Source of the DNA: a virus
DNA length: 64,000 nucleotides
Virus record (IMG/VR): IMGVR_UViG_3300034685_000200
Coordinates: 62,001 to 126,000 of that record
Direction: 5' to 3' (one strand)
The translations under genes were made by a program, and so were the position numbers. Below, piece by piece: positions 2,470-59,133 of this stretch; the first letter of the stretch is position 1, and every line of letters begins with the position of its first letter. The notes under the pieces are model-generated. The model was given only the letters and a program-made list of their open reading frames with translations, was not told where the DNA came from and did not search any database.

Positions 2470-2853
2470 ATGGTTGAACAAACAGATGTGGTTTTTGCAA
2501 TTGTTTCTTTTTGTATAGATCTAACTGAGTTTGATGAAGATGTACTGGATGATATGAGACGAATGTATATTTCAGGAGCTTTGATGTACAATGGATTTTG
2601 CGAAATCTCTTCCCCGGATGCAGATAATACATTTCTTGTTGACAACGTAAGGCTGTTGTTTTATGATTGGCTTAATGGAAGCGTCGAGATTGCCTTTGAT
2701 GTGAGTATGAACAGCAATGCTCGTATTGAAGTATGTGATTTTCCATAGATTATTGGAAAAGTTATGGAAGAAAATGACTGGAAAGTCACTTTTGACCATA
2801 GTTTTAACATTAGTTTGGAACCTTTGAAAAAGGTGTTAAATAAGAAATGTTAA
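2470..2853 (+). CDS. Small unknown protein between the polymerase halves (one in-frame TAG)
   Basis: A 127-residue acidic protein with TAG at 2746 read as sense; the frame then stays open to TAA at 2851. A GGAGG site (TGGAGGTAGCACA) precedes the ATG. Its stop overlaps the start of the polymerase C-terminal ORF (ATGTTAA), so the two are probably translationally coupled, and coupling would require readthrough of the TAG. I recognise no domain. Confidence 0.65.
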
Positions 2854-7062: not shown

Positions 7063-7139
7063 CCCCGTGTAGCTCAATTGGTTAGAGCGACGGACTCTAA
7101 ATCCGTTGGGTGCGGGTTCGAATCCTGCCACGGGGTCCA
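7063..7139 (+). tRNA. Amber suppressor tRNA, anticodon CUA (UAG-decoding), CCA encoded
   Basis: A full cloverleaf can be drawn: acceptor CCCCGTG/CACGGGG (7 perfect pairs), U8 A9, D stem GCTC/GAGC, anticodon stem ACGGA/TCCGT with loop CTCTAAA, so positions 34-36 read CTA, T stem GCGGG/CCTGC (one G-U) with loop TTCGAAT, discriminator T73 and an encoded CCA. It decodes UAG and explains the in-frame TAGs across the window. The variable loop is short (class I). Pair C1-G72 with U73 is not typical of bacterial tRNA-Gln, so the charged amino acid is open. It lies 28 bases from the end of the IS element. Confidence 0.96.
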
Positions 7140-7200: not shown

Positions 7201-8991
7201 GTGGCGATCGGACCTAAAGTTAAACAACAAATCCTAGTAAAACCCCACCTACGTAAAGGGCGTCAGGTTCGGGGTTACACAAGAGAAGGTGAAAAACGAG
7301 TAGATACTGAATTGACGCCCGTTGGAAAATAGAAACAAAACCATAAGGAACTTCATGAGAAATTTTTTGATGGAGAAAGATTAAAGGATTCCATCACAGA
7401 TTCCGATCTGGAAAGTGCTGTCATGGATCTATTCGGAAGCGGTCATGGAGTGGATCGGGAAACCCTGAGTCGAGAGGGCATATTCCAGGAGATTTTCGAC
7501 GGCTGGGATCGTGAATTTTTCGGTGTGGAAACTTTAAGGTTTGACAAACGCCAGTTTTTTAGCGAAATATTGAAAAAAGGGAACGTGGACCGAAATATTC
7601 AATTTGTGGACGGGCTTGAGGCCGAGTTTCGAAAGGCGCTTGGGGTTAAGACCACACGGGAAGATCCATTTACGTTTTCGTTTGATTATGATGGTGCTGA
7701 TACCCAATTACATGCTCTTAGAGAAAACGAAAAGCTCGTTGAGCGTATTCAGAATTTTTTGAGCACGGTTACAGAATTGGGGCTTACCCATGGACAAGCT
7801 TCGTTTGTTTCATCCGACGGACTTTTTGACCAGCTTATTTCCGCCTTCCGAGACGATCCCAACAAATTTTCCAAGGGCGTTGCCCAAACAATCATTTCCA
7901 GCAATATTGCCAACTGGAATGAGGGAATTTCCCCCGATGTTTTTTTGTCATTTGATCGGCAAAAATTTGACAAATTTTATCGGGAAGATTTAGGTGGTAT
8001 CTATGTTGGCGACGGTGAGGCTATGCGAAAAGAACTAATGAAAGAGTTTTCCCGACTTGAATCGGATCTTCCCGATGCGTCGAAGGATGAAATCCGCCAA
8101 TTGCGTTCACATATGAAGAAGGTGGATGCGGCTTCTGTTGGTACCCATCTAACCTTACTTCTTAATAGTGGTACGAAGATTTCTAAGTTTGAAGAACTGA
8201 ACAAAGAACTGAAATCACTGGCCGGATATTTTGGACAACGATTTAACGAAAAAAGTGGTGCAGGAACATCGAATAAGATATATGTTAGCAAAAATCCTTT
8301 GAATATATTAACTATGTCACCAGATAAACATGTTCCTTCCTGTCAGTCATTGTTACAGAAGGATATAGAGACTGGAAATATGGAAGTTAATATAACTATA
8401 GATAACATAAATGTTGTTGGAAGTGCATTGTCCCATAAAACAAACGATTTTGTTATGTATACGACAAATAAAGATGGTGAAAAGGATGCAAGGGTATCTT
8501 TAACATAGCATCCAGAAACTATGGGATTCAGGAACTATGAAAATATGAATATTTATGGAGATAATGCATATCATAAAGGATTGATTGGATCATTTATTTC
8601 ACAACATCCAGATAAGTTTGAGGGTACTGTTCCAGATGTCGATATGGTCAATGTGTAGCAAACTCTACCTGTTAAAAAGTTTTCTGATATTTACAGGAAA
8701 ATTACTGATATTGCAGAAAAATTTCCAAAATTAAGTGATGATAAGAAAACAAAGGTAAAAGAAGCCTTATCAAAGTTTGCAAAGGATTGGGAAGACCAAA
8801 GGAATCATGTCTATACGGATAATCTGGGGGAATAGGAAAAAATCATTGATCGATCATTGGAAAGGGAACGAACCTTGCTTTATAACACCAAGCCGCACTG
8901 GATGGTTAACTTTTCTCACCGATCTTCACAAACGGTGCGGAAAATGGTTTTGGAGGTGGATCGTGTGTTGCGTGAGTTACAAATTGCGTAA
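7201..8991 (+). CDS. Recoded phage protein, 596 aa, basic N-terminal tail (four in-frame TAG)
   Basis: Starts at GTG 7201, right after GGAGATTTAAT, and reads through TAG at 7330, 8506, 8656 and 8833 to TAA at 8989 without any other stop. The N terminus is basic (HLRKGRQVRGYTR), a pattern shared by the products at 17483 and 26494. The region ILTMSPDKHVPSCQSLLQ resembles the 'S-C-x-S-L' segment I recall from uncharacterised phage and Bacillota proteins; this is a weak recognition. Probably a late or virion-associated protein; function unknown. Confidence 0.85.
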
Positions 8992-9790: not shown

Positions 9791-9804
9791 CGTTAGCTAT
9801 CGGT

Positions 9805-10311
9805 CTACGCCGCTTCTTTTGTTTCATCTAAAAACTCCTTTATCGAATCAATCTTAAATTTTCGAAACCTATTTGTTTTAAATTCATTTTCAATTTCCCG
9901 CTTTGCTAGGGTAAGTTCTCGGCTTTTGACGGGTTTGTATTCACCCTTTTTCAAAACCTTTTTCTTTACGACATAACCCGAAAGATAAAGCTGTTCTGGT
10001 TTGTCCTTCAGCATGGAGATACCAGGTGCCACGTTCACATAAACGGGTCCCTTCCGCTTGGCATCGGGATCGTATGTTTTGGGTTGAAAGCGCCCACCAA
10101 CATCCAGGACGGCCTTTTCTGCGACCTTGGGGTAGTGCTTTTTGAGATGATCCGAGATTTTTTCAAGATTTTTTTCGAACCAACGCTTATCCCGTTTGGC
10201 GACGGCACCGAACGGGATTCGGGTATTGATCACAAATTCGGCGACTTCTCCCTTGGAATTTTCATAAATGAATTTCACAATCTTTTTTTCTGCGATTTGT
10301 TCAATGTCCAT
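9805..10311 (-). CDS. Hypothetical basic protein, 168 aa
   Basis: ATG at 10311 has a near-perfect SD (AAGGAGG, 5 bases away), so I prefer it to the upstream ATG in the same frame. Lys-rich, mixed helix/strand, no TAG, ends on TAA. I recognise no domain; the basic character would fit a nucleic-acid-binding role. It is divergent from gmhA and shares an intergenic region of about 200 bases with it. Confidence 0.75.
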   Translation of the reverse strand: MDIEQIAEKKIVKFIYENSKGEVAEFVINTRIPFGAVAKRDKRWFEKNLEKISDHLKKHYPKVAEKAVLDVGGRFQPKTYDPDAKRKGPVYVNVAPGISMLKDKPEQLYLSGYVVKKKVLKKGEYKPVKSRELTLAKREIENEFKTNRFRKFKIDSIKEFLDETKEAA

Positions 10312-13142: not shown

Positions 13143-14564
13143 ATGATTTTACAAAATTTCAAATCGAAGAAACAAATCTATTAGGACTTGTCGTTGATTC
13201 AAAATAACTGGAAACATTTAGTGGATCGTTGTTTTCAGGATATACTCTCACGCCATCGCTTGTTTGAGACGGTTGTTCTCGATGGGACGACCGTCTTTTT
13301 TGATGATCGACCTGTTGAAGAAGCTCTTATTCAGAGTCAGCCGATTAGATTTAATACATATTATTCTGATGTTACTGAACTTTTAACAGCATCGGTTGAT
13401 GAACTAAGGGAAAAGCTCAACGAATTTTTGATTTATATACCATTTAGTAAAAAACGCTTTCGTAGACAGATTGAACTTAAATCTCAGACAGATACAATTC
13501 GTTCAACAAATCAGTTACAGGAAAAGTTTTTTAAGTATATCGACAGGGTTCGTGTTCTTTGCTGTTTTAATGATAGTAAATATTTTAATTACCGATATAA
13601 TCCACAAATTATCAAGAATATGTTTACTTCGTTTGCCGAGGATGTGACTTCATCCGATTTTACGTTCCACGCTCCCGTGTGGACGGATCTTTTCACGTTT
13701 GTTTTTCAGGCCGTTGATGACACCATCTTTTGGCTTTCACCCGATTCCACGATCTAGTTGGATGTGACGGGATTGTTGGGTGATTTCACGATGAATGTCC
13801 CCCTGGTTCGTCGGGTGATTTCCCATGATGCTACTACCCTGGATAGAACGGTTGGTGACCAAACGGATGTTTTGGCCTATCAATGGAGGGGTTTATCGGG
13901 GTTTGTTCCTGGCTTGGAAAAATGGGATTTTACATTTGATAGCAATTCATTTCTTCCCGCTTCCCACGTAGTGGTTCCAACCATGGCCTTTCAGATTTTG
14001 GGGCGGCGAAATCTCGTGGTCTTCAACACGATTTCCAGCAGATCCGAAGAGTGGTTGAGTGGGTATCCCATTCCCTACGGAGATTGGTTGTGGTCCGCTT
14101 TGACGTTTCATTACGGCTTTGACGAGACGACGGTTTCTCAGTGGTTACGCCTGGCCGTGGCACTGGTTCATCATCGGGTGTTGGAAAATGCCCAAATTGG
14201 AATTTTTTCATCGGTTCTCAAATTGGTGTCGGGCACGGAACATGTTTCTCCCAACCTTAAGTAGAGAAACGTTGCGTTCGATCTTTTGTCCGATGTGGTA
14301 TCGAGGATTTCGTTTAACGAACAACGTGAAATCGTCTGGAATGATAAAACTGTTATTTGGAATTTAGATCATACATTCAGTGGATTGGAAGTTCTTCAGA
14401 TTATGTCGGAAATCAATCGGATTGTATTTATTTTTTGTTTTGAATCAGATGTGATGGGTTCTCAAAATCTTCTCCCCCAATTTTCATATTATGCTAAAGA
14501 TCCTTCTTACGGTGGTGCAACGAACATGACGATTCATTTCACTGTAAATAATGTAAAATTGTAA
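13143..14564 (+). CDS. Recoded protein, 473 aa, likely virion component (three TAG)
   Basis: ATG 13143 leads through TAG at 13182, 13755 and 14262 to TAA at 14562 in one frame. The composition (many Trp, Phe, Asp, Ser and short beta-type stretches) matches the giant late proteins at 28-59 kb, so I infer a structural role. No known domain seen. It converges on the minus-strand gene ending at 14566, with one base between the two stop codons. Confidence 0.8.
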
Positions 14565-15221: not shown

Positions 15222-15539
15222 ATGGACGCTTTAATAGCAAATACAATAAATTAGTTGATTACAAACAATCTGCCCGTATCGATTGCTGTTCTCGTGATTA
15301 TTTGTGCGTGGCTGTAGTATTTATATAAAAAATTTTGTAATTACATGGATAATTTCATAAATAAAATTGATGTATATACAAAACTTGTAAGGTCTAGTTA
15401 TGAAAAAATTCAGAGCTTATTAGATTATGCCCATAAAGATTTCATGCGTGAGAGTAGGTTTGAAGATAAAGTTGATTTGATTATTGCAGACTTAAAGGAA
15501 ATAAGAAAGGCCCTTTACTGGGGTAAACCAGGTAAATGA
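15222..15539 (+). CDS. Small membrane-anchored protein, recoded (two TAG), holin-like topology
   Basis: 105 residues from ATG 15222 (GGAG upstream), with TAG at 15252 and 15315. Residues 17-35 form one transmembrane segment (LPVSIAVLVIICAW), followed by a charged helical tail ending KALYWGKPGK. The second TAG falls at the end of the membrane segment, so without suppression only the anchor would be made. One N-terminal TM helix plus a long coiled-coil-like tail would fit a holin, spanin or tail/membrane accessory; the sequence does not decide. The stop overlaps the next start (ATGA). Confidence 0.78.
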
Positions 15540-16438
15540 CATATTTTGAGAACGATAACATTAAAGACTTAACTTCAAGTATACATTCATTTTGTAAATG
15601 TAATATACTTTCAAATAGTGATGTTTATGCGTATTTACGTCGATGTGGATACGGTGATGTTTCGTCTATTTGTGACAGTTTATTTTTGTCATGTGGAAAT
15701 ATCAGGTTTAGTTCAATAAAAGATAATGGTAATGATATTATCACTTTTATGATAAATAATAAATTATTTTCATTAATAGCAAAAGCATTCTATCATGATC
15801 AATTTTCTTGTCTGACACTATATTTAATAGATATGAGTGTGTATGATTTTGAGCTTAGAAATTATGGTTTTGGCACAATATTACTTAATTTTGTGGAGTG
15901 GTTGTTTTTCTATGTTGTGGAGCAAAAGTATAAGACAAATCTTTCCAATTTTTTAATTGTATTAACAAAATATAAATCAATACCATTTTAGTTGAAACGT
16001 GGATTTCAATTTACATATATAAGTGACGTTGCCGATAAGTTGGCATTCTATAAAACAATTGAGCTTATTGTTTGTATGAATGATTTCTTTGGTTTTTATC
16101 ATGTGAATCCTGTGGGTTTATATACTAAAACCGACGTAAGTATTCACGATATTTTATCGGGATGGATCTTCTCATTTTATGATGACATAATCAAAAGGCA
16201 TCAAACCAATTTTGATAGTATAATTTGTTATCATATTAAAGATTTATATAGAGATCGTTTAGGTTGCGAAGATGTTGACAAGCTAATCAAAATGTGTTAT
16301 GTGGATGTGTGTCGTCGTCTTTGTGACTACGTTTTGTGGAACAGTGGAGTGCTACGTGATTTGTAGAGTTTATTTTTATTGACAAAAACTGTTGATTTAA
16401 GCCTGTTAGGAGAAAATGTTTATCATGAAAGAAGTTAA
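15536..16438 (+). CDS. Recoded hypothetical protein, 300 aa (TAG at 15989 and 16364)
   Basis: Coupled to the previous gene by an ATGA overlap. It passes TAG 15989 between two open halves and a second TAG at 16364; after the second the frame stays open to TAA at 16436, overlapping the nuclease gene by 23 bases. The second TAG may instead be a used stop. The product is rich in aromatic residues, Ile and Cys, largely helical, and unknown. Confidence 0.7.
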
Positions 16439-17486
16439 AAAATACATACCAAAGGATGGAGAAATTCACATTCTAGTTGATGGGGGAGCTTTCCTTATCC
16501 CCTATTTACAATATAATCTAGTAATGTGGAATCGTGTGAACATAACACCTCTGGCAAAATTATTGGAATTGTATTTCAATACCACTGCATCAAATCCAAC
16601 GGCAAATTTTTATATTTTCATTGATAATGGAATTCCAAAACATGTGTCCATGATGAACGCAAGGTATAAGAAAAATAGAAATCATTCCATCAGAAGGCGT
16701 GAAGATGCCGTTGTTTCAGCCAACCTAAGTAAATCGCACCCCTATAGCATTAATCGGACGCTTATTCAATCCATATTTACTGATCTGGGTCATGGCGTGT
16801 ATTTTTTCAATGAAGCGGATTATCAATTGGGATACATCTTGAAGAAATTAGTCGATTCTGGTGTGGATACATCCCGTTGTTTTGTTTTTAGTCACGACAA
16901 CGATCTTGTTGCACTTTTGGAATATGCAAATGTATTTCATCGGGTTCGCAAAAACAAACAAATGCATTTGAATTTCTATCCTATTGGTTCTTATGATATG
17001 GTCGTTGATAAGCTACGTGTAGAAACATATGAAGAATATGTTATTATGAAGGCGTTGTTGGGCGATAAGGTAGATAATATCATGCCTCCCATGTTAATTA
17101 CAAAACGTTTTGTAACAAGTCTGTTCAATCGTTATAAACATGAATTTGGACATCTCACACTCGATAGATACAAAGCGTGTGATATTATCAGTGAAAAAGG
17201 ACTTCTCAAATATAAAGATAGTGAAAATTACGATGCCTTTCTTGAGCGTGTGGTGAAGGAATTTCTGACTAATTGTAAAATATTCGATGTATTCAATTGT
17301 GAATGGGTATTTGGGCAATCGGATAAAAACTATATTGATATTGTTTTTGAAACACAAATAAAACATAAGATCAACGTTAATATGCAAAAAGTGGCGGATA
17401 CGATTTTTCGTGTCTCTAAAACATATTACGATTTATTTAAAAAATGGCATGAAGTTGTTTACAAAAAACGGGGATTTAAGCGATGA
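16416..17486 (+). CDS. FEN-type 5'-3' exonuclease / flap endonuclease (phage RNase H family)
   Basis: 356 residues, no TAG. PIN-like nuclease motifs occur in order: LVDGGAF near the N terminus, FIDNGIPKHVS, YKKNRNHSIRR (the basic segment that contacts the flap), FFNEADYQLGYIL, VFSHDNDLVALL, and ALLGDKVDNIM, the H3TH-type GDxxDN signature. The family removes RNA primers and 5' flaps during lagging-strand synthesis. The start is ATG 16416 or 16425 (SD AGGAG). Its stop overlaps the next start (ATGA). It complements the polymerase at 0-4 kb. Confidence 0.88.
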   Translation: MFIMKEVKKYIPKDGEIHILVDGGAFLIPYLQYNLVMWNRVNITPLAKLLELYFNTTASNPTANFYIFIDNGIPKHVSMMNARYKKNRNHSIRRREDAVVSANLSKSHPYSINRTLIQSIFTDLGHGVYFFNEADYQLGYILKKLVDSGVDTSRCFVFSHDNDLVALLEYANVFHRVRKNKQMHLNFYPIGSYDMVVDKLRVETYEEYVIMKALLGDKVDNIMPPMLITKRFVTSLFNRYKHEFGHLTLDRYKACDIISEKGLLKYKDSENYDAFLERVVKEFLTNCKIFDVFNCEWVFGQSDKNYIDIVFETQIKHKINVNMQKVADTIFRVSKTYYDLFKKWHEVVYKKRGFKR

Positions 17487-18688
17487 ATGATATTAAATTT
17501 ACGAAAGCATTGGATGTTCGTGGTAGAAGGAAGGGGAAATACCCTAAAACTCGTATAAATTATGTACGAAAAGGTAAGGTTGTTTCCCGATAGGAATATA
17601 AAAAGTTCTAGAAAGAAAGTGAATTGGTTGCCCATGGTATTGGAGAATTTTCTAACAAAGATTTACTCAATTCAAGAAGATCGTGGAGAGATATCCGAAG
17701 AAAGATTGAAAAAGATAAAGATTATGCATTTGAGCAAATGTTGTTTCTATAGGAATTTCAAACCGATGCCGAACAGCTTGCCATGAGAACGATCTACAAA
17801 AACAATGTTGGATTCAATAAACCGGACGGTGCCTTTGTTGCAAAACTCATGAAGGGAATTCGTGAGGCGGGTGGTATCGGAAATTATCGTTCGTCCATTG
17901 GTGAAAAAGAGTAGGTAAAAATTGAAAACTCGATTCAAAAGCGCATGAAGAAATATTCGAGGCAATTATCGGATATTTTTAATGACAACAACCGCCGTCG
18001 CATGTTCCGATCATTGCGTGAGGCCGTGGTGATTGGAAAGATCCGTGGAAAGGGTGTTCCAGAACGTGAAGCCCTTCGTGTGGTAAGAGCCTTCAAGACT
18101 AGCGATTCATTGGGAAGACGCTTGGATTTTGTGGTCGTAAACACTGATCTTTCCGAGCGTGCCAAGCAGGTGTCGGCTGGAACCCTTGCCACAAAAACCT
18201 GGACCCCCATGGGAACCTACAATACGGTCATCTCGTCTCCTTTGGGTGCCCACGATGTGTTTCGTCAGGCCACCGTGGGAAGAGACGATGATGGGGTTAT
18301 GAACGATCTTTGGAACGAGTGGTTTTCCAAACAGGATGAAAAGGTTCAAAAGATCTTAAAAACCTTGTTGTATATTCCGTTTGCTCATCTATCGGATAAT
18401 GATCGTGTGATGGTTCAAACGATTCTTTCCCAAAATACAAAACCATTGGCTGGAATTTTAAATGTTTTTCGATATTTTACAAATAAGCACATCAATGCCA
18501 GGCTTTCCGATACGTACCGCTTTGGAAAGCTCGTTCGTGAACCGCAATTGTCAACGGTCGTTCGCAGGGAATCACTTGAAGTTGATTCAGATAAGACAAA
18601 GTAGTTTAAAAAGCGTGCTCAAAGTATTTTTTCGGGTGTTATAAACAAATTCTTAAAGAAAGTAAAAAAACCAAAAAAGGGGGAATAA
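17483..18688 (+). CDS. Recoded basic protein, 401 aa, likely virion-associated (five TAG)
   Basis: ATG 17483 overlaps the stop of the nuclease gene. TAG codons at 17591, 17609, 17750, 17912 and 18602 are read through to TAA at 18686. The N terminus is strongly basic (VRGRRKGKYPKTRINYVRKG), like the tails of the proteins at 7201 and 26494; the C terminus is also Lys-rich. The middle is helical, with runs such as RRRMFRSLREAVV. Function unknown; nucleic-acid contact inside the capsid would fit. Confidence 0.85.
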
Positions 18689-18691
18689 CAA

Positions 18692-18868
18692 ATGATCGTT
18701 TATTTTTTGAAGCCTCTTGGATATGAAAATTACCTAGGTCTAAAGTCTGTTCAGGATGTAAAACGGGTTCTCAAAAAACTTCAACCCGGAGATGAAATCA
18801 TCATCCGGGTTGGTGAAATGACAGATGAGGAGTTTGAGAAATTAAGCGATTTTAAGGGATTTGATTGA
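18692..18868 (+). CDS. Tiny acidic protein, member of a four-gene paralogue family
   Basis: 58 residues starting MIVYFLKPLG, ending EMTDEEFEKLSDFKGFD. It shares its plan (initial V-Y strand, central amphipathic helix, G-x-x-I-x-I-R strand, then a D/E-E-E-F/Y-E-K-L/M tail) with the products at 20452, 26131 and 26330. It sits 3 bases after the preceding gene and before a strong terminator. Unknown function; the size and charge recall small phage inhibitors of host proteins, which is speculation. Confidence 0.75.
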   Translation: MIVYFLKPLGYENYLGLKSVQDVKRVLKKLQPGDEIIIRVGEMTDEEFEKLSDFKGFD

Positions 18869-18875
18869 TGATATA

Positions 18876-18912
18876 AAAAACGTGCCACCAATTGGTGGCA
18901 CTTTTTTTTTTC
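18876..18912. terminator. Bidirectional Rho-independent terminator
   Basis: Perfect stem GTGCCACCAA/TTGGTGGCAC at 18882-18901 with A6 on one side and T10 on the other, between convergent genes. The minus-strand GHKL gene ends on TAG right at its edge. Confidence 0.93.
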
Positions 18913-20270
18913 TAAATGCTTTTCCATATTTTTTTAAATTCTTTTACCAGTTCATCGAAATCCCAAAAAAATTCCCTTACAGTGTGAAACATAAGCACGA
19001 ACTCTTCATTATGATATCCATAATAATTGGATCTCTTAATTGTTTCCACGTGAGCAATCTCATGTGTCAACACTTCAATAAGGTGAAAGACCATGAGTTT
19101 TTTATTAGGAGCATGAGATCCGATTTTTTCCAAATTGATACACACAACGGGTTCGTCGTTTTCATCCTTTCTCACCACGCCCAATATTTCATTGGAAAAC
19201 ACCACACCGAGTTTTGGAGCCGGTTTGTTTAAGCTGTTGTAGTAGTTTTCAAGAAGAGTTTCTGCAAACATATAAAGACGAATGTAGCGCTTGAGCTTCA
19301 TGGTGTTTTTCATTTTACTCGGGACACAACCATAAAATGGGATTGTCCCGACGTTCTGACTTGTGTAGTATTGAAGCTCCATGCGATCAATCACTTTTTT
19401 TGTCTTTTTCTCACTTTCTTGCTTACTTATATTAAAGAAATTTGCAACTGTACTTACGGAATCGACGGATAGAATATTTTGAAGGTTGTTCATGTCAAGT
19501 TGTGCTTCTTGTTTCAGACTATCCCTATTTTGATTATACACTTCATAGGCCACACCCCTAGCGTTGACGATGATGGGAGCGCTCAGTGAACCATTATAAG
19601 ATTTGAACATATGAATACCGTTCGTCCGAACATAGATCTGTCGGTTATCATAGCTATCTTTAAACTCTGTTCCAATGTATATATCAAAGTATTTTGTTTT
19701 GCTGATAAGTTTTCTTTCTTTTAGGCATTGTTCCTTTTTGTTAACATAAGAATATGTACCCGTAAATGTTACGACATAAACATTTGTGTTTGTGTTGCAA
19801 TAGTTGAAATAATAATCAGAAAAGGTTTTGATCTTTTGAAAATCTTCTTCGTTTACTTTAATGGTACTTACACACCCATTAACATATTCGAGATCTGACT
19901 TTTCAACGGAATACATGTTGCTCTTCCCACGAACAACAATATCCCTCGTTCGGATTTCATATTCCAACCAGGAAAAATAAATCAAAATTTTGGCGTGACC
20001 GAAAGCACCAACAGTTTCACCACCAACCTTGCCGCTTCCACCCATGACAAGAAGCTTGTTCAGGATGGTATCCTCGTCCATTCCCGTACCATCGTCAATG
20101 AACATGATTTCATGATTTTCCTGATCGAAGCAGATGATGAAATTTTTGGCTCCGGCATCCACACTGTTTTGGAAGAACTCACGGATTACAGCTTCGTGCA
20201 TGTTGCTGTAGTCCTTTTTGCTCATCTCATAGAAATAATTTTCGGGAATGGCAACCTGATTCTTATACAT
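18912..20270 (-). CDS. GHKL (HSP90-like) ATPase fused to an HExxH metallopeptidase-like C-terminal region
   Basis: 452 residues; ATG 20270 has SD AAAGGAGA. The N-terminal part carries the Bergerat ATP site: REFFQNSVDAGAKN (N box), FIDDGTGMD (G1 box) and GGSGKVGGETVGAFGHAK (lid/G2). The last 60 residues contain HEIAHVE, a zinc-metalloprotease HExxH motif, followed by HNEEF. I know of no host enzyme with exactly this pair, so substrate and role are open. The annotated stop is TAG next to a terminator; readthrough would add about 20 residues up to TAA at 18852-18854. Confidence 0.85.
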   Translation of the reverse strand: MYKNQVAIPENYFYEMSKKDYSNMHEAVIREFFQNSVDAGAKNFIICFDQENHEIMFIDDGTGMDEDTILNKLLVMGGSGKVGGETVGAFGHAKILIYFSWLEYEIRTRDIVVRGKSNMYSVEKSDLEYVNGCVSTIKVNEEDFQKIKTFSDYYFNYCNTNTNVYVVTFTGTYSYVNKKEQCLKERKLISKTKYFDIYIGTEFKDSYDNRQIYVRTNGIHMFKSYNGSLSAPIIVNARGVAYEVYNQNRDSLKQEAQLDMNNLQNILSVDSVSTVANFFNISKQESEKKTKKVIDRMELQYYTSQNVGTIPFYGCVPSKMKNTMKLKRYIRLYMFAETLLENYYNSLNKPAPKLGVVFSNEILGVVRKDENDEPVVCINLEKIGSHAPNKKLMVFHLIEVLTHEIAHVETIKRSNYYGYHNEEFVLMFHTVREFFWDFDELVKEFKKIWKSI

Positions 20271-26329: not shown

Positions 26330-26494
26330 ATGAAAGTTTATAAAATTCGTGGGCTCTTTGACGATACTTGGTATGTCGTTAATGATAAAAAAGCTTTTGT
26401 GATGTTGCTCGACGAATTGGACCTTGGTGTTCAATATGCTATCCAAATTAACGAAATGGATGAAGAAGAATTTAACAAGTTGGAAAAGGTATAA
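26330..26494 (+). CDS. Tiny acidic protein, tandem paralogue
   Basis: 54 residues, MKVYKIRGLFDDTWYVV at the start and MDEEEFNKLEKV at the end. Closest in plan to the product just upstream, so likely a tandem duplication. Starts 16 bases after it; TAA overlaps the next ATG by one base. Confidence 0.75.
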   Translation: MKVYKIRGLFDDTWYVVNDKKAFVMLLDELDLGVQYAIQINEMDEEEFNKLEKV

Positions 26495-27270
26495 TGAAAC
26501 GTGGACACGGGCGATTAAAGAAGGTTCCTAAAGTAAGCAAAAAGGGGAAACCATACCTTCAGGGTTACTAGGTGGTGGATAAAAAACCAACCACCATTGA
26601 CAAGTGGACGAGGGAAGGTGGTCAACTCGGGTCAAACCGTGGGGGTGTTTTTCGGGATGAAAAGGGAGAAAAGTGGTACGTGAAATTTCCCGAGACGGAA
26701 AAACATGCCCGCAATGAAATGTTGGCCGTGCAACTCTATAAATTGTGGGGCTTGGAGACGCCGGAAGTTAAATTCATCGAACGAAATGGTGAATTCGGAA
26801 TTGCTTCCAAATAGGTGGACGATCTCAAACCCCTTAAGACCGACGAGGATTTCAAGAAGGCTGGAATGGGTTATGCGGTGGATGCCTTTCTTGCCAATTG
26901 GGATGTTTTCGGGTTAGTTTTTGACAATTGTTTTATCAATTCAAAAACGGGCCAGCCTTTTCGACTCGATGCCGGTGGTGCTCTCCTCTTTAGGGCACAG
27001 GGAGCACCCAAGGGGGATCACCTGTTTAACGGTGATAGCGTTCCTGAATTGGATACATTTTTTCAAATTGGTAATGCCGCCAAGGTTTATACCCGATTGA
27101 GTCCCGATGAAGTAGAACAGAGCTTGGAACATTTTAATACAGTTTCTCTGGATGAAATTTTGAATGTTGTGGATCAAGTTGGATTCGATGAACAAACAAA
27201 TAAAAAGATGAAAGACATTTTAACTGGTAGATATAACTATATCAATTCTGTTCAAATGAGGAAACCATAA
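26494..27270 (+). CDS. HipA/PI-kinase-like fold phage protein with basic tail, recoded (two TAG)
   Basis: 258 residues through TAG at 26569 and 26812. The N terminus is basic (RGHGRLKKVPKVSKKGKPYL). The body has features of kinase-like proteins common in phages: QLGSNRGGVFRDEKGEKWYV (P-loop-like strand with a Lys in WYVKF), NEMLAVQLYKLWG, VDAFLANWDVFGLVFDN (catalytic D-x-x-x-x-N type) and FRLDAGGALLFRAQG (metal-binding D). I infer a kinase fold; activity and substrate are unknown. A role as a virion-injected protein would fit the tail and the recoding. Confidence 0.75.
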
Positions 27271-27686
27271 TGTTTGTTAAAAATAGCAAAACCTTACCAC
27301 CAAAGTTCAAACCATTTGTAATATATCGACCAGATCTTGTTACGCTGGGTCGTGTAGCTAAATCAAAGTTATGGCCCGATTAGGTAATCAATAAGATTGT
27401 TGAGTTATATAAGGAAATTGGATTGCCAGATCCACTTACACAAAAGGTTGTTAATCCATATCTTGAATTTTTTGGTGGGCGTTTTGATAAGGAAAAACAA
27501 CGGTATACATTAGATGATGTAAATTGGGATGAAGTTATTGATTATTTTTTACTTGAAGTTTTGAAACTAATAGATTATAATAAATACGAGTCTGAGGCTT
27601 CCAAATACGAGAAGAAATATAATCGAAAGCCTTCGACATTTTGTGTGTATTTTTGGAAAAGTCAATAGGAGGAAAACAATGGATAA
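27270..27686 (+). CDS. Recoded hypothetical protein, 131-138 aa
   Basis: ATG 27270 overlaps the preceding TAA. One internal TAG (27378) must be read. A second TAG (27666) either ends the protein or is read to TAA at 27684; it overlaps the SD of the next gene (TAGGAGG), so a real stop here is plausible. Unknown function. Confidence 0.68.
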
Positions 27687-28028: not shown

Positions 28029-28940
28029 ATGGACAATGCAAAATTACGAGAAATCATATATAATTATAATGAACGTCTTGGTGTAATTGTTCCTTTAAGT
28101 AAAAAATCTGATTCAAAATTTTCATATAACAATGCGCTTATAGATATTGCCTCGTTGTCCACTTTAATCGATACAAGCGAAAAGCTTTCGATGAAGATTA
28201 ACTTAATCCCCATTGATAACGAAGACCTGTTATTGAACTATGACGAGACAAGTGTTCTAAATATTCTAAATTATGAAGAAGATCTCGATAGTTGGTTTCG
28301 ATAGTTGGCATTTTATCCAAAGTTTAATACGTCGTTTTCAAAAATTATGCATGTTCCGGTGATCAAATCCCAGTTGTTGGATGCAGGAGATGAAATCAAA
28401 TCTGTTTTTAGATTTCCCATTGAAGTTATATACTATTTTTACTTTGGAGATAAGCTTGTAACAGAAAAACGTTTCTACAACTCGTCATTTTTCTTTGACG
28501 AAACGGCCTATAACGAAATTCCGCCATTCATACTTTCTAAATACAATTTTGACGATTTCTTTGAACACGACGACTTTGAAACACCAGTTGATTCTTCCTT
28601 TTTTGAATAGTCCCGTTCGTTTAAGGATTCCACCCATTTTGCATTTATAATTGATGATCCTGATATTCGTTCTCAAACAAAGTACATTCCCTTTTTTGAG
28701 GTTCGATTCACCGTTACGTCATCTCCTTTGAGAAATGCCGATGCGCTCGAACAACAAATTCTTTCGCAAAATTTTTCGAGTATGGATCAATTTTCAAAGT
28801 TTGTAGATTTTTACTTGGTTATGAAAGATGTTGCAACGGGCGAAGTGTATTTAAGAAAAATCACAAACAATAAGGCTTCTTTTAGGAAGATTTTCTATAA
28901 TATTGATTACATAAACTTTAAAAATAGAATCGTAAAATGA
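28029..28940 (+). CDS. Recoded virion-type protein, 303 aa (TAG at 28302 and 28608)
   Basis: First gene of the late block; ATG 28029 with AAGGAG. Two in-frame TAGs join three open pieces up to TGA at 28938. Beta-rich and aromatic like the following giants. No recognised domain; a tail or baseplate component is inferred from position. Confidence 0.82.
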
Positions 28941-28949: not shown

Positions 28950-31900
28950 ATGGCTACTTACCTAAACAATCTAAGGCACAAAATTTACTTTAATCGTGGT
29001 GATGAAACAAGTTGGTCTGATACAACATTTGATATTACAACGGACATTCAGACCATAAAAAATTATTTATCACTCGATTCAACGCTTCAAAAAACGGTTT
29101 TCGAATCGTATTCCGACGTTACCGCCATGGAGCTTGTATTTGATGACAGTTGGTTTTTGAAAGACCGGACGTTTTTCGAGGTCCTGGATATCTTTTAGTC
29201 GGATGGAACGAATCGTTATGACCAAAGTGTTGTAATGTTTACACGAGATGAAATCATCTACGATCACACACTTCTCATGAAGGAAATCGATCTTCACTTT
29301 GTTCTTCGTGTTGTCCGTTAGCCGGAATTAAGTGAAGGTAATATGTTTTCGTTTCCGTTGTTTGTGAAACCAACCATTCCATGGCTTGCAAACGATTTGG
29401 TTATTCAGTATGATGTTCACTTTATTGAAATGGATATGTTTAACGATTATGCACTTATGACGGGATTAAAGGATTATATTTATAACAATTATGTCGTTAA
29501 ATTGAATAATAAGTTAAAGCTTAATTATTTGTCTTGGAATGAAATTGAATTGATTGACTATAAAGAAATAGTCAGAAATCATTTTATCGAAAACATAAAG
29601 CGTACCGTCGGCGATTCATGGGATGTTGTTCATGCTGAAGAAAAGAAATAGTATTTCCATACACCAAGTGAAGTCTACGAGTTGAAAACGGGTGCGGATA
29701 CGGATGTTTTATTCAACCTTTTCTGGTCCGAGGCGCAAGATTTCTACCTGAATCGTGTACATTGGGATGTGGATTTTACAGGGGCACTCAACACACCAAG
29801 CGATTTGTACGAGGTGGTGTCGAGTGTGCAACGAATGGAGAATGGGCATCTTGATATTCTGAATGTAAATTTCATTCGTTTTTTGCTTATTCGGAACAAT
29901 CGCTATCAATGGGAATTCAATCTTTACCAGGACGGCACGCTTTGGTGGAATACATATATTTGGTTTCAAGTTAAAAACATCATTCCAGATTGGGATGTGG
30001 ATTTTACGTTTGTGGAAACAGAAGATTCCATGGCGTTGTTTGTTGACAGCACCACGGATATTCCGATTAAAATAGATGTTCTGGAGTATTCAAACAACCT
30101 TCTTTGGAGTTCGAAGGTCCCATACAGCCAATTTGTAAATAAAATTTATCTCGATACATTTAATTTACGATTCGATGTAAATAAAAATCTACTATCCTAC
30201 GGAGAAAATGGTATCCGGTTGTTCATGTCGGATACATTTAGTGAAGCCAATAAAGACTACATCAAACGGTTTGTTTATGCTCCCTTTGATATCATTAAAG
30301 ACTATATCGCAAAAATCAATTTTACACCGGAATACACGGGGGTGAAAAATGGTTGGAACCCGGATCTTCTTGTTCCGTGGAGTGATGATTTTACAAGTTA
30401 TGATGATTTCAGTGCCTATTTAAGCCCGGATGCAACAGATCGTTGGATGGTTCTGTCAATTCCAGTAAAATATGAATTGATTTATCTACAAAACGTTCCA
30501 ATTGTCGTTGAACTGGATGCCACGGGACCAATTTTTGAATATCTGGAGTGGGACACAACTTCTTATTCATTGTCCCTTGAACCCACCCTGCAACTAAATG
30601 AAACCGGAAATCTTAATAAATGGTTTACACTTTATTATCGTTATCGTTTTAAGCAGGGTATGAACTACACTGATGATATTATACAATCATTAAATGGTAT
30701 TATCCACCTATCAATTACAACTGAGGGTATTGACACAACAGATGTTAATTATTTCCAAGAATAGATGGAAGTGCCGTTTATTACAACCAGGTATAAGCTT
30801 AGAAAGAAATCGCATGAGCCCGTTGTTCAGCAATTATATAAGAAAGTTGAAGAAATAAAACAAGATGTTACTTTTGCGTCAGATGAGACGTATATTTATA
30901 CATTAACGGATCGCAATCTATTTAGAACCGGAATTGATATCAAAGAACTAACCTACAATAAAACAACGACGATTCGTGGTGTTCCAGTTCAATTTAAAGT
31001 TCCGATGTCCATTGGGATGGATTTGGTTGAATATTTTGTTTATGACAGTAATCAAGATGGAGATGATATTATTATACATAAATTTATGTCACCGAACATT
31101 GGACACACAAAAGATGTTGTGAATTTAACAAAATCGACTGTATTGGATACTATTATCAATGGCATGAAAAACTTTTTTATTGATTTCTAGAATGATTACC
31201 AGTCACACATTGGAAATGAGATTGAGGTTTCTCTTGAACCTACGTTAAAATCCAATGCAATGATATTGGGGAAGAATCGTTTCCAAAATTTATTGTTAAC
31301 GGATGATTCTTGGGATGATACGGCTACGCTAGATTATATGATTCATTACTTTTCATTGGATCGCAACGACCCCGAAAACGTTAAGACAAAATTAGAAAAT
31401 GATGCTATTGAGAAGATGTCGTTCAATGGACTTGTCGAATATACAATCGGAAAAATCTCCCGATCTGGAAATCATACTGGATGGGTAAAGTTTAATTCGT
31501 CAAATATTTTCAATGGTTCTTCTATTCAGCCAATTGCTATGGAATCTTTTCTTGTGAAGTATTATAAAGATAAATTACCTAGTTCATGGAAATATAGAAA
31601 TTATGTAGATGGTTTAAGTTAGCGGAAAAAGTATATTACAACGAAAAAGAAAGAGTCGTTCGACACTACATTCTTTGATTGGATGGAGGAAAATGGATTT
31701 CTTGGTGGATCAATATCTTCAATTGTTAACTGGTTTATGGACAATGTTAAAGTGGATGTGATGATTGATCAAACAGCGATGTCTCTTACGACGAATGAAA
31801 TTATCGATACACTTATTTATAGTGCAGAAAATAATAAAAGCGTTAAAGAAAATCTTAAATCATTTCTTAGTAACATCATTATAGCACCATTTTCATTTGA

Positions 31901-33446
31901 TACATTCACTGTTTCTCGTGTTTATTCGACGGATCTAACATGTGAAGCCTCCGAAGTTACCGAAGATGTGTTTACCATTCTCATTGAACCTACGCAAAAT
32001 TCACGACTTTATTCTAAATTTAGAATTACAGAAGTTGATTATGTATATAACGATACATTGGTTGAACTAACATCGCTTTACGATATCAAAGCTCTTCAAT
32101 CAACGGAAATGTATGTGCATGAGGTCTATGGAACTGGTGTTAAGTTACTTCATAAATATCTTGTGTATAGCACGGAACCGCAGACTATTATTGTAAATAT
32201 CAAATATGTTGATGAAGATGGTGTTCAAAAAACAACTTCATCAATGGTAACTGTAAGTTCACGCCTACAACTTTCCGATCCTAGTGTTTTGTCTAGTGTG
32301 ATTTCAACCGGGGTAAACATCTTTAAGGCTCTTTGGTTTTTGGCTGTGTTTGATCAAAATAATCAACACGTCCAAACAATGCAAAAATCAATGAATGCTG
32401 TTCTTGGAAATACTACCGATTCAGCTTATGATGATGGCAAGGCGTTTTAGGGGGCCTTCTTTGAGCTTCGTAAAAAGTTCCGTGCAGTGTTTGAAAGGTT
32501 TCTTCCTAGTTCCGTTTTGGAGTTATTTTATTCGACATACATTGTTCCAATCACGCTTTCTCTACCAGTATATACTTAGGATGTAAAATCAAATCTTATC
32601 TTCTTACCCGAAAACGTTTAGTTATCAAAAAATGAGTTTTCTGATAAGAATCTTGCTAATCGTGTCAAAGATATACTCGAATCAAATAATGTTTATGTTA
32701 ATCAATCATAGGCCGAAACGGCATTGGGTGAGATTAAACTTAATTACAACATACTGGTTGATGATTACATGAAAAAGTATGTTGAAACGGGTGATGCCTT
32801 TTACCATCTTGTCATGGTTCCAGATACGACATACAACATCCGATTCCGAAGTTATCTCACATTTGCATGGACGCTTCGTGCTGGAGACAAGGCGGTTCCG
32901 TGGGCCGAAGCCCTTCTTAATGGATTGTCTGATCCATATTCCATGCCCGTAACGCTCAAAGAGTTTGTGGGTCTTATGGAGATCTACCCGGAGCTTCGGA
33001 GTACGATCCAAGGAATTGTTCGGGATTGGTGGGCCAGATGGAACTTGCCAACAACCGGAAGAAGTCCTAGTGCTCAAAATCCCGTTCACGTCGTTTCCTA
33101 CACGGATAAGATTTGGCAAATGGAGTCATCAAGTCTCTTTCAGAGCGCTTCGGTCTATGTTTATAGAAAATCAAATTCCATTGAGGTGGGTTGGTCATTT
33201 GCAGTTCCCTACGAAGACATTGTGGTGAGTGTGGATACCACATCGACTGGAACATTCTACGTTAATCTTCTTCCACTAAATAACTTGTGGCGTTGGGATA
33301 CTGAGTTTGGAAACCTTCTTACCATGGAGCTATGTGGGTCAAATATTGGAGTCCAGAATGTTATGGATAAGCTTTCGATTCGGGTTCACATTCCAAGTGT
33401 CATACCCGAAAAATATCTGGATGTTATCGTAAAAAGACTTTTCTAA
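28950..33446 (+). CDS. Giant recoded structural protein, 1,498 aa (ten TAG)
   Basis: One frame from ATG 28950 to TAA 33444, with TAG at 29196, 29319, 29649, 30762, 31188, 31620, 32448, 32577, 32619 and 32709. In the standard code it would look like eight unrelated ORFs. The product is rich in Asp, Trp, Tyr, Phe and Asn with many short beta strands, typical of large tail, baseplate or fibre proteins. I see no catalytic motif. It is followed by a G6/C6 hairpin and a convergent small gene. A structural role is inferred from size, composition and neighbours. Confidence 0.9.
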
Positions 33447-36288: not shown

Positions 36289-38835
36289 TCAGAATTTGAT
36301 CAATGGGTCTGGTAATGATGGTGTTTTAATTGGCTAATCATATATTGTTGCAACGACATTAACTTCATCAATTTCTGATAAATAGTTATGATTTACAACG
36401 ATGTTTGTTATGAAAGGATTGGAAAGGTAAAGTGATTCCTATGCGCTATGATCATCTTGTGATTTAATGGCTCCTAGTGAAATTTTAATTGTTTTGCTAC
36501 TTGTTGGAAACAAATCTTCTAAGAGTTTGTCGAGGTTATCCGTTTCAAACGTTTGAACATCAAATCTAATCTGCTGTGAATTACTGAGACCGGAAATAAA
36601 GTCGCTACTCTTGGACGTAATGTATTTGATTTCCTGTTTTCCCTGGACTCTGTACTCTAATTTTGCAATAAGGCCACCACCCCGTCCAACATTGCTTGTG
36701 TATGTTGGAACAAGAGCGTTATAATATATATGATTCAAATCCTAGATATGATCTGGATCACTTGCTTTAAAATCTACGGGGAGACTTGTTGGTGTGTATT
36801 TCACGATATCAGTAATTTGCCAGCTTTCGTTTTGATGCTTTGTATTTTCAAACGTTTTTAATTCATACACGAATCTCGTGTCTTTCATATTAGGAAGACT
36901 TGTGAAGACCTTATATTGTTCATTGATGATATTTAATTGACGCACAAATACACGTTGCGTAGCTTTGTCTGCATCTGATTTGTTTTCATAAAATGTGTCC
37001 ATAGCCAAATCATTTTCGTAAAACGATACTGGTTCGAGTGATTCTTCCATAGCCATTACAAGAATACCTTCCATAATACCACTACGTCTTAATATATCCC
37101 TTGGGAAACCAATTAGTTCACACCCATTTCTAACCCACATGGTGACGTTTTGCTAAAGTTGTGCACAAAGTTGATAACGGGCTTTTTGAACTGTATCACG
37201 AATGTGGTCTTCGTCGTTTACATTGGGAAGAGAGACAACTGTATGCAGATTAAAAATTTTATCTCTTGTAATGACTGAAATAGCTCCATCATTCCAATAA
37301 ATGCTCCTTGGTAATTTCATTTTGATACTTACTTCATAGCCAAGATATCCTGCGCTTGTTTTTTGACTTCGCTTTGTCATATAGAGGTAATCGCCTTTGA
37401 TGTATCCGTCATTAATGTAAGTTGTATCGTACTCGTAATCTTCCATGGACCAGTTTTCATATTCAATTGTTTCCATTGTATCTGGTGGCAGTTCCAGTTT
37501 ATTTAGAAGCGGCTAGGAAATAAGTTCTTTCCCCGATAGATTAAAATCCTTTTGTGTCCAAATTGGAAAAGTTTGCCATGTGATGAATCGACCTTGTTTT
37601 ACATATTGCCATAAATCGAATAGATCTGGATCATAACTAAAAACAAAAGCAACAACAAATTTAATACCTTCCCGTTGTTTGAATGATTCGTTTTTCTGAA
37701 CTTGAAACTGAGATATCGGTACGTTTACTCCATAATCTACGAAGTATTTTGTTTTGCTATTCGAATAGTTGATATTTTTTGTTCCAATCCAAACCATATC
37801 CTTGAACGTATCTTCGAGGAATTCTTCAAGTCGTGCCGTTGCGGCGGCGTTATCGAGTTTCATTTCAATATTGATGTACGTTCCTTTATTTTCCTTTTCA
37901 ACTTCAACGGATTCTTCGATTATGTCTTCGTCCCCGATTGCGGTTTTTCGTACTTCGTCGTCAAACATCCATTTTTTTAGTTTTCCGAGTTTTTCAAGGT
38001 AATATTCATCATTTACCCATTTACAGATTGTCATCAGGTTTTTTTTGTCAACAGCAATCGACGAATAAAGGTGATTCATAGATTCAATATTTACGTTATT
38101 TGTAAAATCTTCGTAAGATTCAATTAGACCACCATGTCCCAAAAGTTTAATTTCCCCAGCTTTCATGTAAATGAAAGGATAGATTCGTTTTAGAAAACCA
38201 AACAACCAGAAACGCTTATCGGTATACTTGGAAATGTTAAGTGTTCGGATTTTCATTGTTTGAAGGATTTCAATCAATTCATGCGAATCAATCATGGTGG
38301 ATATTTCTGGTATGGCCTTTTCGAGCCAGTTATAAAGTGGCGTTTCAACTCCAAAGACAATTTCGGCCATTTCATCACGTATTTCGTCAATTTTCGTTAA
38401 ATAATAGGCATAGTCAACGAGGGCTCGATCCAGGTCGTCCTCGTCCATGTAGCGTTCCAAGATGCTCCATGCACGGTTGGATTTCCATTTTTCCCATTCC
38501 GCATTGGATTGAACCCAACGTTCGTCGGTGCTTACGTTGAAGAAGTAATAATCTTTGTCCACCATCCACGAGTCGCCGTCCCACATGGTGGCAACGGATT
38601 CGTAGAGTGATTCAAAATCTTTCGTAATATAAATGTCGTTGTTTTTAGAAATCTTTATACTTCCTCCGTTTTGCACAATTTCATCAAAATAAGTTTTCAA
38701 AATGTTTTCCCTCTATTGAATGATATTTCCATAGGTTGAAACATCGTCATAAAAAACGCTGGAAGGAATGACAGATGTTACGGTTTCAATTTTAGATAAT
38801 TGATTGAATGTAGTTTGCTTCGTTGTTAGGAACAT
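36289..38835 (-). CDS. Large recoded structural protein, 848 aa (six TAG)
   Basis: Read on the minus strand from ATG 38835 (GGAG upstream) through TAG at 38713, 37513, 37153, 36742, 36439 and 36334 to TGA at 36289. The start is visible only with readthrough: otherwise the first 45 codons, ahead of TTG 38700, are lost. Beta-rich with aromatic and acidic residues; no catalytic motif seen. Its 3' end lies about 45 bases from the outer IS right end. Probably a tail, baseplate or fibre component. It diverges from the 2,511-residue gene. Confidence 0.88.
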
Positions 38836-38914: not shown

Positions 38915-41900
38915 ATGAATAAATTTTCGGTTAAAAACCTGGATTAGAAGATTATTGATTAGCGGAGAGAAACACAAGAATTTTTTGCAGAATATGTTGA
39001 TGAGTCCATTTATGCCGTGCCTGGTGTGGAATGGGTTGCCATCAAGACACCACTGCGTGATTTTACACTCGAAAATAACAAGAATGCACTCTTTGATTAT
39101 AAGACTATAGGAAACGATTCGTTAAAATGGTTTTGTTTCAATGTTTATGCAAGCCGGTTAAATAATATTTTTGTTGATGAAATGATCCAATTGGAAAATA
39201 ATCTTGCTAGTAACGAACAATATGGAAAAGATCTTGTAAACAATTGGTATAATTATCTTGATAGTAATCTTTCCATCAATTTCGATGACGTATTAGCTAA
39301 AGTGAGTGATCCTATTGTAGAAGATTTACTTATTGATTCAACCCATCAAAGAATAAAACCCCAATTGATTCTTCATTCTTTTAAGGTTTTGGAAACGGAT
39401 TTCACGGATTTTTCAAAGGTTGTGGATGCGGTATATAATAAGAAAGCGATTAAGCATCTTTTTGTTCCACCAAACGACATTATTAAGAGTTCATTTACGA
39501 TTCAGGAAAAATTTTATAATCTTTTTAAGCACCGAAGAAAATCATTCATTGCACTCATTTCTGGACAACCAGCAAATAATGTGACTTCAGTTTTCTATGA
39601 TATGTATGTGGATTCTACCAACCTTGTAATAAGAACATATAAGTATTCATTCGATTGGAATTGGAAGTTTTTTCAATATTCTCCAATAACAAAAGAATAT
39701 TCTATTCGAGGCTTGGATAGTACATCAGTAAACTACGGTTCCGCATTTTATGGATATTCGTGGAATGACTAGCCAACATATAATTAGGGTTTATCGACTC
39801 CGCCGCTTATAAATTCTAATGATATTTATACTATTCCAACACACAAATTACTACTACAATATGCTCCAGAACATAAAGAAGGTGAAGTACGATCAACTTT
39901 CGAATCTGTAAGAAATAAGTGGTATACCGGAAAAAACGGTTCATTTGATACAACGTTTAATGTTTTAAACTTTATAGACAATTCTTTACTTTCACAAGCT
40001 AAGCTCATAAAAATTCAATCTTCAAACATACATAAACACACGGATGAAACAACTTATGTTTCGTGCTATCAAATGATGATTCAATTCAATTCCGGTGTTG
40101 TGGGGTATGTGCCGATCCAGGTAGTTTTTAATTCAGATACATTACAGCATGAAGTTTCTAATCTCATCGATTCAACAAAGCTTATTCTTCATCCGTTGAA
40201 TAACCTACTTATCGATTATTCCATTTCAAATTAGGTTATCGACCAAGATACTTTTTCGCTCACAGATGTTTTGGTGGATACTACGACTGGAATTTATTGG
40301 ATCAATCGTAACAAGCTTAAACTTTCGTCTGATGTTACAATCGTGAGCGATGTTTCGAGGATTTCGTTTATCAATGGAACGCCAATGGTTGGAACGTTTA
40401 CGTATTCAAGAAACCGACCCTATGATGCGGCTCCGGTTGCTACGTTGGGTCAGTGGTCAAAGAGCAATCCGTGTGTCAAGCGGACGCCATTCGGTGTAAT
40501 ATCTCGTCCGTATGATTTTGTTGAAACACGTTTTTGGGACAATGTAAAATTTTATAACATACAAAGTAGCGGTGGTTGGTTGATAAATTCACTTGATCCT
40601 ACAATTTTTGGAAAGAGTCTTATTAATGTGGGTAGTATTTTTGTTGATTCAGTACAAGAAATTACTATTCCTAGAACATTACCATATATTGTACAAGCAG
40701 CCTATTAGAATCCAGCATATAAGCAAGTCTATAATATTTATGGTGGCACAATAAACGATATTACAGGAAATTAGAGTCTTGGTTATTATGATTTTATATA
40801 TAATACAGAATACTATTCACTTCACAGTTCATTAAAGGGTAAGTTTGATGTAGCAGAAGAGGATATTCCAGGTAATCGTGGTTTCTTACAAATTGATTCA
40901 TCTGGCGTATTTACCAAACATTAGTCATTTGTTGATAGTTTTGTTACATTAACCATTTCACCGGATTATACAGCATCAACTTTTATTTATAAAGGATATG
41001 AATTACCTGAATATGATGTGCGATCATTTGATGTGACGCATATTGATGAAACATCCATTGTTATAACTAACAGCTTTAAAAACGATATTTTATATGATTA
41101 TGACTCTGTAACGGTTAATGCTGACCAGACAGTATTCAATAATCCATCGTTGAAGGTATTTCAGAAAAATACATAGATCTCCGAATTGTTTTATTCATTT
41201 TTCACGGATTCCGTTTTTGCTGTAGATAATACACAACTGTTTCACTACGATCAAGGTACTGGTAAAGTATTTCGATGGGACGGAACATCATTACAAAGTT
41301 AGATAAATGATAATGCTGGAATGACAAATCTTAATATTTTTTATTTTAATAGTAGATATTTAATTGTCCGTAAGTACTCGTAGGGTACTATTGGTGGATG
41401 GAATCCTGATGGGGTTGGGACACTATTATATGATTTAGAAAACCGTTCAGTTGAGAGACTTGGTGTCAATACATCAGATACGATGTGGTTGCCATCTACT
41501 GTTAGGAACAATAAGGTTCACATGATCAATAAGCGATTTAGTTAGGGTGGATTTACCAAGCCTTAGAATTTAGCTCTTTTTGATCTAGATACATCAACTT
41601 GGATTGATTTACCAGACATTCCCAATACGTACATTGGGTTAGCAGAGGCATTTGAACAAATTGACGACACAAAATTTGTATTCATCGGCCCAGAAGACGT
41701 TACAGATAACTATTATTCAGAAAGCAAACGACCTATGATTGTGTTTATGAGTCTTGTGGATGGTACGGAATGGGTCGAAGAAGATGCTTATTATCTTAGT
41801 GATGAAAGTCTCTTATGGAATTATAATAACACAGGATATAATAAACACTAGACGTTTTAGGATCACAAGACAAACAGATGGTTTATATGGACAATAGAAT

Positions 41901-59064: not shown

Positions 59065-59133
59065 TAAAGAATATACTAATAGTACAAACCACAAAAAATA
59101 TACTAGATGAGAGACGTGAAAGGAGTATCTAAA

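Follow-up and report, generated by a model that had tools for sequence, protein, structure and literature searches.

A phage that reads TAG as sense in its late genes, probably as tryptophan, and encodes a tRNA-CUA and a putative TrpRS-like synthetase

A gene for a tRNA with the anticodon CUA, lying among phage genes that contain TAG in frame, raises the question of which amino acid is inserted at UAG. The stretch of DNA that was analysed (the window; 64,000 nucleotides) corresponds to bases 62001-126000 of a source record of 126,535 bases. The PHROG and Pfam matches of this record are of the large tailed phage type (Table 1). The gene for the family B DNA polymerase (PolB) is split into two pieces at window positions 13-1488 (with its start upstream of the window) and 2847-3806, with other ORFs between them. 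An RNA-repair nucleotidyltransferase (RlaP-like) is encoded at window positions 22350-23315. The presence of this gene, the CCA-adding enzyme gene and the synthetase gene described below suggests an RNA/translation module. Four genes at L005:12759-16501 are related to each other (37-47% identity) and contain no TAG. L006:14074-14721 encodes a ROS/MucR-type transcription regulator (PF05443; E-value: 2.5e-28). The ROS/MucR family is found mainly in Alphaproteobacteria, and this regulator is a possible clue to the phage host.

ARAGORN identifies a single tRNA gene in the window (positions 7063-7139, plus strand, anticodon CTA), while the one other tRNA of the record is a tRNA-Ile with the anticodon UAU. 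The tRNA-CUA matches the Rfam tRNA model with 72.8 bits (E-value: 5e-14) and every stem is paired. It has a C1-G72 first pair, U73, an encoded CCA and a variable loop of 5 nt. The initial annotation, made from the sequence alone, had described a CUA tRNA with perfect stems and an encoded CCA and had concluded that the phage has its own UAG-reading tRNA; both statements are borne out by ARAGORN and the Rfam model. Its reading of the acceptor end as C1-G72 with U73 is likewise correct. GlnRS prefers G73 and a weak first pair, and the anticodon-loop bases U35 and A37 are favourable for this enzyme (as known from E. coli GlnRS identity). The window tRNA lacks the Gln identity elements U1-A72 and G73. 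Bacterial TrpRS also prefers G73, and bacterial tRNA-Trp is known with this base. The C1-G72 pair is a Tyr signature in archaea and eukaryotes, and the Leu, Ser and Tyr tRNAs of bacteria have a long variable arm. Comparison with other tRNAs was of little help: tRNA-Trp was among the best matches in one search and other isotypes ranked higher in another, nearest-neighbour tRNA identity gave no information on the tRNA-CUA, and searches of genomes and viruses with acceptor and arm patterns for its origin found nothing.

A TnpB-like gene (IS200/IS605 type; window positions 5735-6976) ends approximately 90 bases 5' of the tRNA. This gene contains no TAG and is followed by a hairpin. Another TnpB-like gene is found at 34811-35881. 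A candidate hairpin pairing the 3' flank of the tRNA with the ribosome site of the following gene was rejected, as the fold was no better than that of shuffled sequences (z -1.2). Promoter scans gave no more matches than chance, and Rfam, the only check made for a theta ribozyme, listed none.

Gene calling allowed only TAA and TGA as stops, and closure by these codons is thus built in. In the whole record, the 108 called genes end in TAA (70) or TGA (38) and contain 145 in-frame TAGs. The status of TAG was assessed by the coverage of ORFs of at least 300 codons over window positions 27.9-59.3 kb (31,400 nt). With three stops, these ORFs cover 4,797 nt (15%); with TAG as a sense codon, they cover 28,516 nt (91%). 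The gain is specific to TAG, because no such gain is obtained with TGA (4,797 nt, 15%) or TAA (8,271 nt, 26%) as sense. Segments between TAGs are coding in frame, with 81% scoring >0 compared to 0.5% of off-frame controls. Twenty genes with at least two TAGs account for 127 of the 145 and most other genes have none. Most genes with at least two TAGs lie at 28-59 kb and lack a match to a non-structural family. TAG is concentrated in late/structural genes, and its reassignment to sense in the late genes of this phage is confirmed, as is the earlier observation that TAG lies in frame inside many genes.

The protein encoded directly 3' of the tRNA (7201-8991) and that of L004:2021-3817 are distant paralogues (20% identity over approximately 600 aa; E-value: 5e-13). 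They have a common N-terminal motif, and their genes contain 4 TAGs and 1 TAG, respectively. No match to the Kelch-like protein was found in the PDB.

Some TAGs may be true stops. Of the 18 single-TAG genes, 6 have their TAG no more than 25 codons from the called end, compared to 2.1 expected under uniform placement, while genes with multiple TAGs show no excess near the called end (5 versus 4.6 expected). The five scorable tails that follow such TAGs have coding scores of -0.01 to -0.32, compared to an in-frame coding mean of +0.21. Because TAGs are in excess near gene ends and the tails are not coding-like, a few early genes may end at TAG (two candidates are listed in Table 1), although this evidence is suggestive and not proof. 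The initial annotation had stated that joining across TAG always keeps the frame and gives genes terminated by TAA or TGA: coding does continue across TAGs, but "always" is slightly too strong.

Table 1. Features of the window and its source record (window positions unless otherwise stated).
Feature	Coordinates	Strand	Basis
tRNA, anticodon CUA, reads UAG	7063..7139	+	ARAGORN; Rfam tRNA 72.8 bits
Recoded gene directly 3' of tRNA, 596 aa, 4 TAG	7201..8991	+	gene call
Gene with single TAG 3 codons before TAA; TAG may be true stop	9793..10311	-	gene call
Recoded gene, 2 TAG; longer start at 13026 adds 2 more	13194..14564	+	gene call
Recoded gene, 2 TAG	15536..16438	+	gene call
Recoded gene, 5 TAG	17483..18688	+	gene call
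HATPase-domain gene; single TAG 19 codons before end, tail scores as non-coding; may be true stop	18852..20270	-	
Recoded gene, 2 TAG	26494..27270	+	gene call
Recoded gene, 2 TAG, one 5 codons before end	27270..27686	+	gene call
Recoded late-region gene, 2 TAG	28029..28940	+	gene call
Large recoded gene, presumed structural, 1498 aa, 10 TAG	28950..33446	+	gene call
Recoded gene, 848 aa, 6 TAG	36289..38835	-	gene call
Largest recoded gene, 2511 aa, 27 TAG	38915..46450	+	gene call
Recoded gene, 3 TAG	46469..47674	+	gene call
Recoded gene, weak Kelch-like match, 2 TAG	47696..48307	+	gene call
Recoded gene, Kelch beta-propeller match, 8 TAG	48362..50647	+	gene call
Recoded gene, 769 aa, 12 TAG	50972..53281	+	gene call
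Recoded gene, 2 TAG	53297..54385	+	gene call
Large recoded gene, 1598 aa, 20 TAG	54439..59235	-	gene call
TyrRS/TrpRS family gene, 408 aa	record 37499-38725, outside window	-	PF00579, E-value 9e-20
Family B DNA polymerase, two pieces			PHROG/Pfam match, record
DnaB-like helicase			PHROG/Pfam match, record
SNF2-type helicases			PHROG/Pfam match, record
Class II ribonucleotide reductase-like gene			PHROG/Pfam match, record
Thymidylate synthase			PHROG/Pfam match, record
MoxR ATPase			PHROG/Pfam match, record
RecA-like protein			PHROG/Pfam match, record
CCA-adding enzyme	L006:1758-3266		PHROG/Pfam match, record
Transglycosylase			PHROG/Pfam match, record

The record also encodes a putative aminoacyl-tRNA synthetase of the TyrRS/TrpRS family. 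Its best PDB match is the Thermotoga TrpRS 2g36 (E-value: 1e-22), and the NCBIfam trpS models rank first, yet fall below their cut-offs (107 and 98 bits). This protein retains the motifs HLGH, KMSSS and YPLLMAAD...VGDDQ, and close to the C-terminus a C-x21-C-x6-C-x2-C pattern can be aligned to the equivalent stretch of the Thermotoga enzyme. Judged by these matches, it is predicted to be a divergent TrpRS-like enzyme. The record contains neither PF00749 (Gln/Glu synthetases) nor PF00472 (release factors of the RF1/RF2 family); control genomes gave matches to both, and the record may be a fragment. Fifteen other phages that have a CUA tRNA all lack PF00579. Four phages (G002, G003, G007 and G012; L010, L011, L015 and L020) have a CUA tRNA and show little TAG recoding in the stretches examined. 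In three others (G061-G063; L185, L188 and L189), a PF00579 synthetase is accompanied by a slight gain in ORF coverage with TGA as sense, and these are possibly code 4 phages.

The residue at TAG was assessed from its sequence context using logistic pairwise classifiers. Their training set consisted solely of 511,000 residues from other phages, and they were then applied to the Trp and Gln sites and the 123 TAG sites of the window phage itself. The TAG contexts lie close to those of Trp (z 0.5) and away from those of Gln (z 3.7). The log likelihood ratio (lnLR) at TAG sites favours Trp over Gln by 7.8, over Lys by 7.9, over Glu by 10.7 and over Arg by 11.5, and the contexts also point away from His, Ser and Thr. 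The rejection of Gln is robust to the omission of neighbours up to one or two residues away, and in a bootstrap over genes the probability of TAG falling at or below Gln is 0.0008. Leu, Ile, Phe, Met and Val are indistinguishable from Trp in this test, and Tyr is only weakly separated from it. Two control phages with strong TAG recoding and a Gln-like tRNA-CUA are called as Gln (lnLR(W:Q) of -13.4 from 330 sites and -21.4 from 469 sites) and a third phage, with 81 sites, is undecided (-0.4). In the former two, Q is also the top residue in homologous columns (7.8/26 and 11.5/37). Gln is thus rejected at the TAG sites of the window phage, whose contexts are Trp-like, and the initial annotation was right to doubt Gln on the basis of the acceptor end.

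Other versions of this test were set aside. Without external training, the context tests lacked the power to call any residue, and a first network test that pointed to Trp was poorly calibrated and was replaced by the externally trained classifiers. The TGA sites of the TrpRS-bearing G061-G063 were tried as a Trp control, proved erratic (35-58 sites) and were not used.

Direct evidence from homologues is lacking for the window phage. A tblastn search of 50,697 phage records returned no match for two large structural proteins or the protein of 17483-18688, and IMG/VR yielded nothing when scanned with three proteins singly. With no alignable outside homologue, TAG columns could not be compared in this way. 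The few TAG columns that align to the relative described below or to the paralogue correspond to S, D, L and M in poorly conserved stretches. In addition, TGG is not depleted in the window phage (1.82% in TAG-bearing genes versus 1.51%).

A search for relatives of the synthetase identified G060, a record of 180 kb and a distant relative of the window phage. The ribonucleotide reductases of the two are 45.5% identical over 835 columns, and both PolB pieces, the CCA transferase, the RecA-like protein and others are held in common. The PolB gene of G060 is likewise in two pieces (L258:1272-3416 and L255:12512-13564). G060 is TAG-recoded, as ORF coverage rises from 30% to 58% with TAG as sense. 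Its sole ARAGORN tRNA (all but 374 bases covered) is a tRNA-CUA with C1-G72 and U73, found alongside a tmRNA, and its only PF00579 gene matches TyrS (E-value: 2e-10) slightly better than TrpS (E-value: 6e-8). TGG makes up 0.16% of codons in TAG-bearing ORFs of G060 compared to 0.77% in TAG-free ORFs, while TAG itself makes up 1.11%. This five-fold depletion (Fisher p 2.6e-23) is the lowest ratio of the 20 residues; the next is Cys (0.53), while Tyr (1.08) and Leu (1.01) are unaffected. At TAG columns with homologues, Trp accounts for 4.5/15, and one such column is Trp in 8/9 homologues. That TAG encodes Trp in G060, taking the place of TGG, is well supported.

In the window phage itself, the evidence comprises the tRNA, TAG reassignment, a synthetase gene and TAG contexts that are Trp-like and not Gln-like. 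Because it shares its lineage, synthetase family and C1-G72/U73 ends with G060, and because Gln is rejected, UAG is likely read as Trp in the window phage by means of a phage-borne synthetase/tRNA-CUA pair. The broader statement is somewhat less secure: the lineage of the two phages probably has a code of its own in which UAG is Trp, with a natural synthetase/tRNA-CUA pair set apart from host tRNAs by C1-G72 and U73, and with TGG largely displaced in the late genes of G060. Certainty about Trp is precluded by the undepleted TGG of the window phage, by its uninformative aligned TAG columns and by charging that has not been demonstrated. U73 also departs from the G73 of bacterial tRNA-Trp, and the similarity to tRNA-Trp is not decisive.

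The proposed model for the window phage is as follows. UAG in late genes would change from stop to tryptophan, with this codon read by the tRNA-CUA. The TrpRS-like synthetase (record positions 37499-38725, minus strand) would charge the tRNA-CUA with Trp, a step that is inferred. C1-G72 and U73 should make this tRNA a poor substrate for host enzymes; such orthogonality is also inferred, and would account for the presence of a synthetase gene in the phage. Most early genes would be free of TAG, while a few may use it as their stop. Full-length TAG-containing proteins would presumably appear only after the tRNA and synthetase have built up.

The alternative that survives best, though it remains unlikely, is that TAG encodes a hydrophobic or aromatic residue other than Trp (Tyr, Leu, Phe, Ile, Met or Val) or a mixture. 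The context test cannot exclude Leu, Ile, Val, Phe or Met, and Tyr is suggested both by the archaeal/eukaryotic signature of C1-G72 and by the slightly better TyrS match of the G060 synthetase. However, the synthetase of the record itself is TrpRS-like by its PDB and NCBIfam matches, the window tRNA lacks the long variable arm expected of a bacterial Leu, Ser or Tyr tRNA, and only Trp is strongly depleted in G060.

Ordinary code 15, in which host GlnRS would charge the tRNA-CUA with Gln as in crAss-like and Lak phages, is less probable still. U35 and A37 would suit GlnRS, and amber suppressors derived from tRNA-Trp, such as E. coli Su7, take Gln; C1-G72 and U73 oppose this enzyme. It is the commonest known TAG reassignment in phages, and Gln at TAG has been confirmed by peptides in code 15 phages of the crAss-like group (PMC9523058). 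Nevertheless, the contexts in the window phage differ from those of Gln in a test that calls Gln in two control phages, the record has no gene of the GlnRS family, and G060, with the same tRNA features, puts TAG in place of TGG.

Programmed or partial readthrough, with TAG mainly a stop and a minority of proteins extended, would fit the few early genes that seem to end at TAG and the absence of an encoded RF2 to compete with host RF1. It is very improbable, as genes contain up to 27 TAGs, some of them within the first 15 codons, for which weak readthrough would hardly be enough, and coding character persists through the segments between TAGs. Pyrrolysine can practically be discounted: ARAGORN labels the gene tRNA-Pyl, but this label reflects the anticodon alone, the tRNA has a canonical fold over the whole Rfam model with a D loop and variable loop that are normal and unlike those of tRNA-Pyl, and no PylRS was seen among the proteins scanned (without a dedicated PylRS search).

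Translation of TAG-reading phages routinely places Gln at this codon (code 15). If the codon is Trp here, the structural proteins of this lineage, and of relatives as yet unknown, are misannotated at dozens of sites. It would also follow that phages can alter the amino acid assigned to a stop codon by bringing a synthetase and a tRNA, and that a ready-made orthogonal amber pair for tryptophan exists in a virus. Together, the synthetase and tRNA may form a naturally occurring system for amber suppression whose identity elements are unusual. The context test with its Gln controls offers a simple means of re-examining "code 15" phages that lack alignable homologues. No paper was found that describes a phage in which UAG is Trp with its own synthetase; as most subscription journals were outside the search, this is no proof of priority.

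The window phage resembles known systems in part. With the code 15 phages (crAss-like, Lak and Phassvirus, with tRNA-Sup-CTA) it shares TAG as sense in late/structural genes, a CUA tRNA and TAA/TGA stops. Unlike these phages, its TAG contexts are not Gln-like, its tRNA has C1-G72 and U73, a TrpRS-like synthetase is present and no RF2 was found. Crass-like phages use either TAG for Gln or TGA for Trp, mostly in late genes (PMC7886860). Code 4 phages, as described in a source that cites Borges et al. 2022 (PMC10746230), encode a UCA tRNA, RF1 and TrpRS and read TGA as Trp. The conversion of a stop to Trp through a phage tRNA and a phage TrpRS would be common to both, whereas in the window phage the codon is UAG and not UGA, the anticodon is CUA and no release factor is encoded. 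Kienbeck et al. 2024 predicted that 19.4% of 180 phage tRNAs reading UAG have the Trp isotype (PMC10879173). The tRNA-Sup genes next to theta ribozymes in that study are similar in reading UAG and in their suggested Trp identity; in the text examined, the isotype is a prediction only, with no linked synthetase and no codon evidence.

Two systems outside phages are also comparable. E. coli Su7, a tRNA-Trp with the anticodon CUA, is a similar case in that the window tRNA could also come from tRNA-Trp by a change of C35 to U. Su7 retains G73, and its host charges it mostly with Gln, whereas U73 and C1-G72 should weaken Gln charging of the window tRNA. NCBI table 32 (Balanophoraceae plastids) has the same codon assigned to the same amino acid, TAG as Trp, but it applies to an organelle genome rather than to phage genes that come with a synthetase/tRNA pair of their own.
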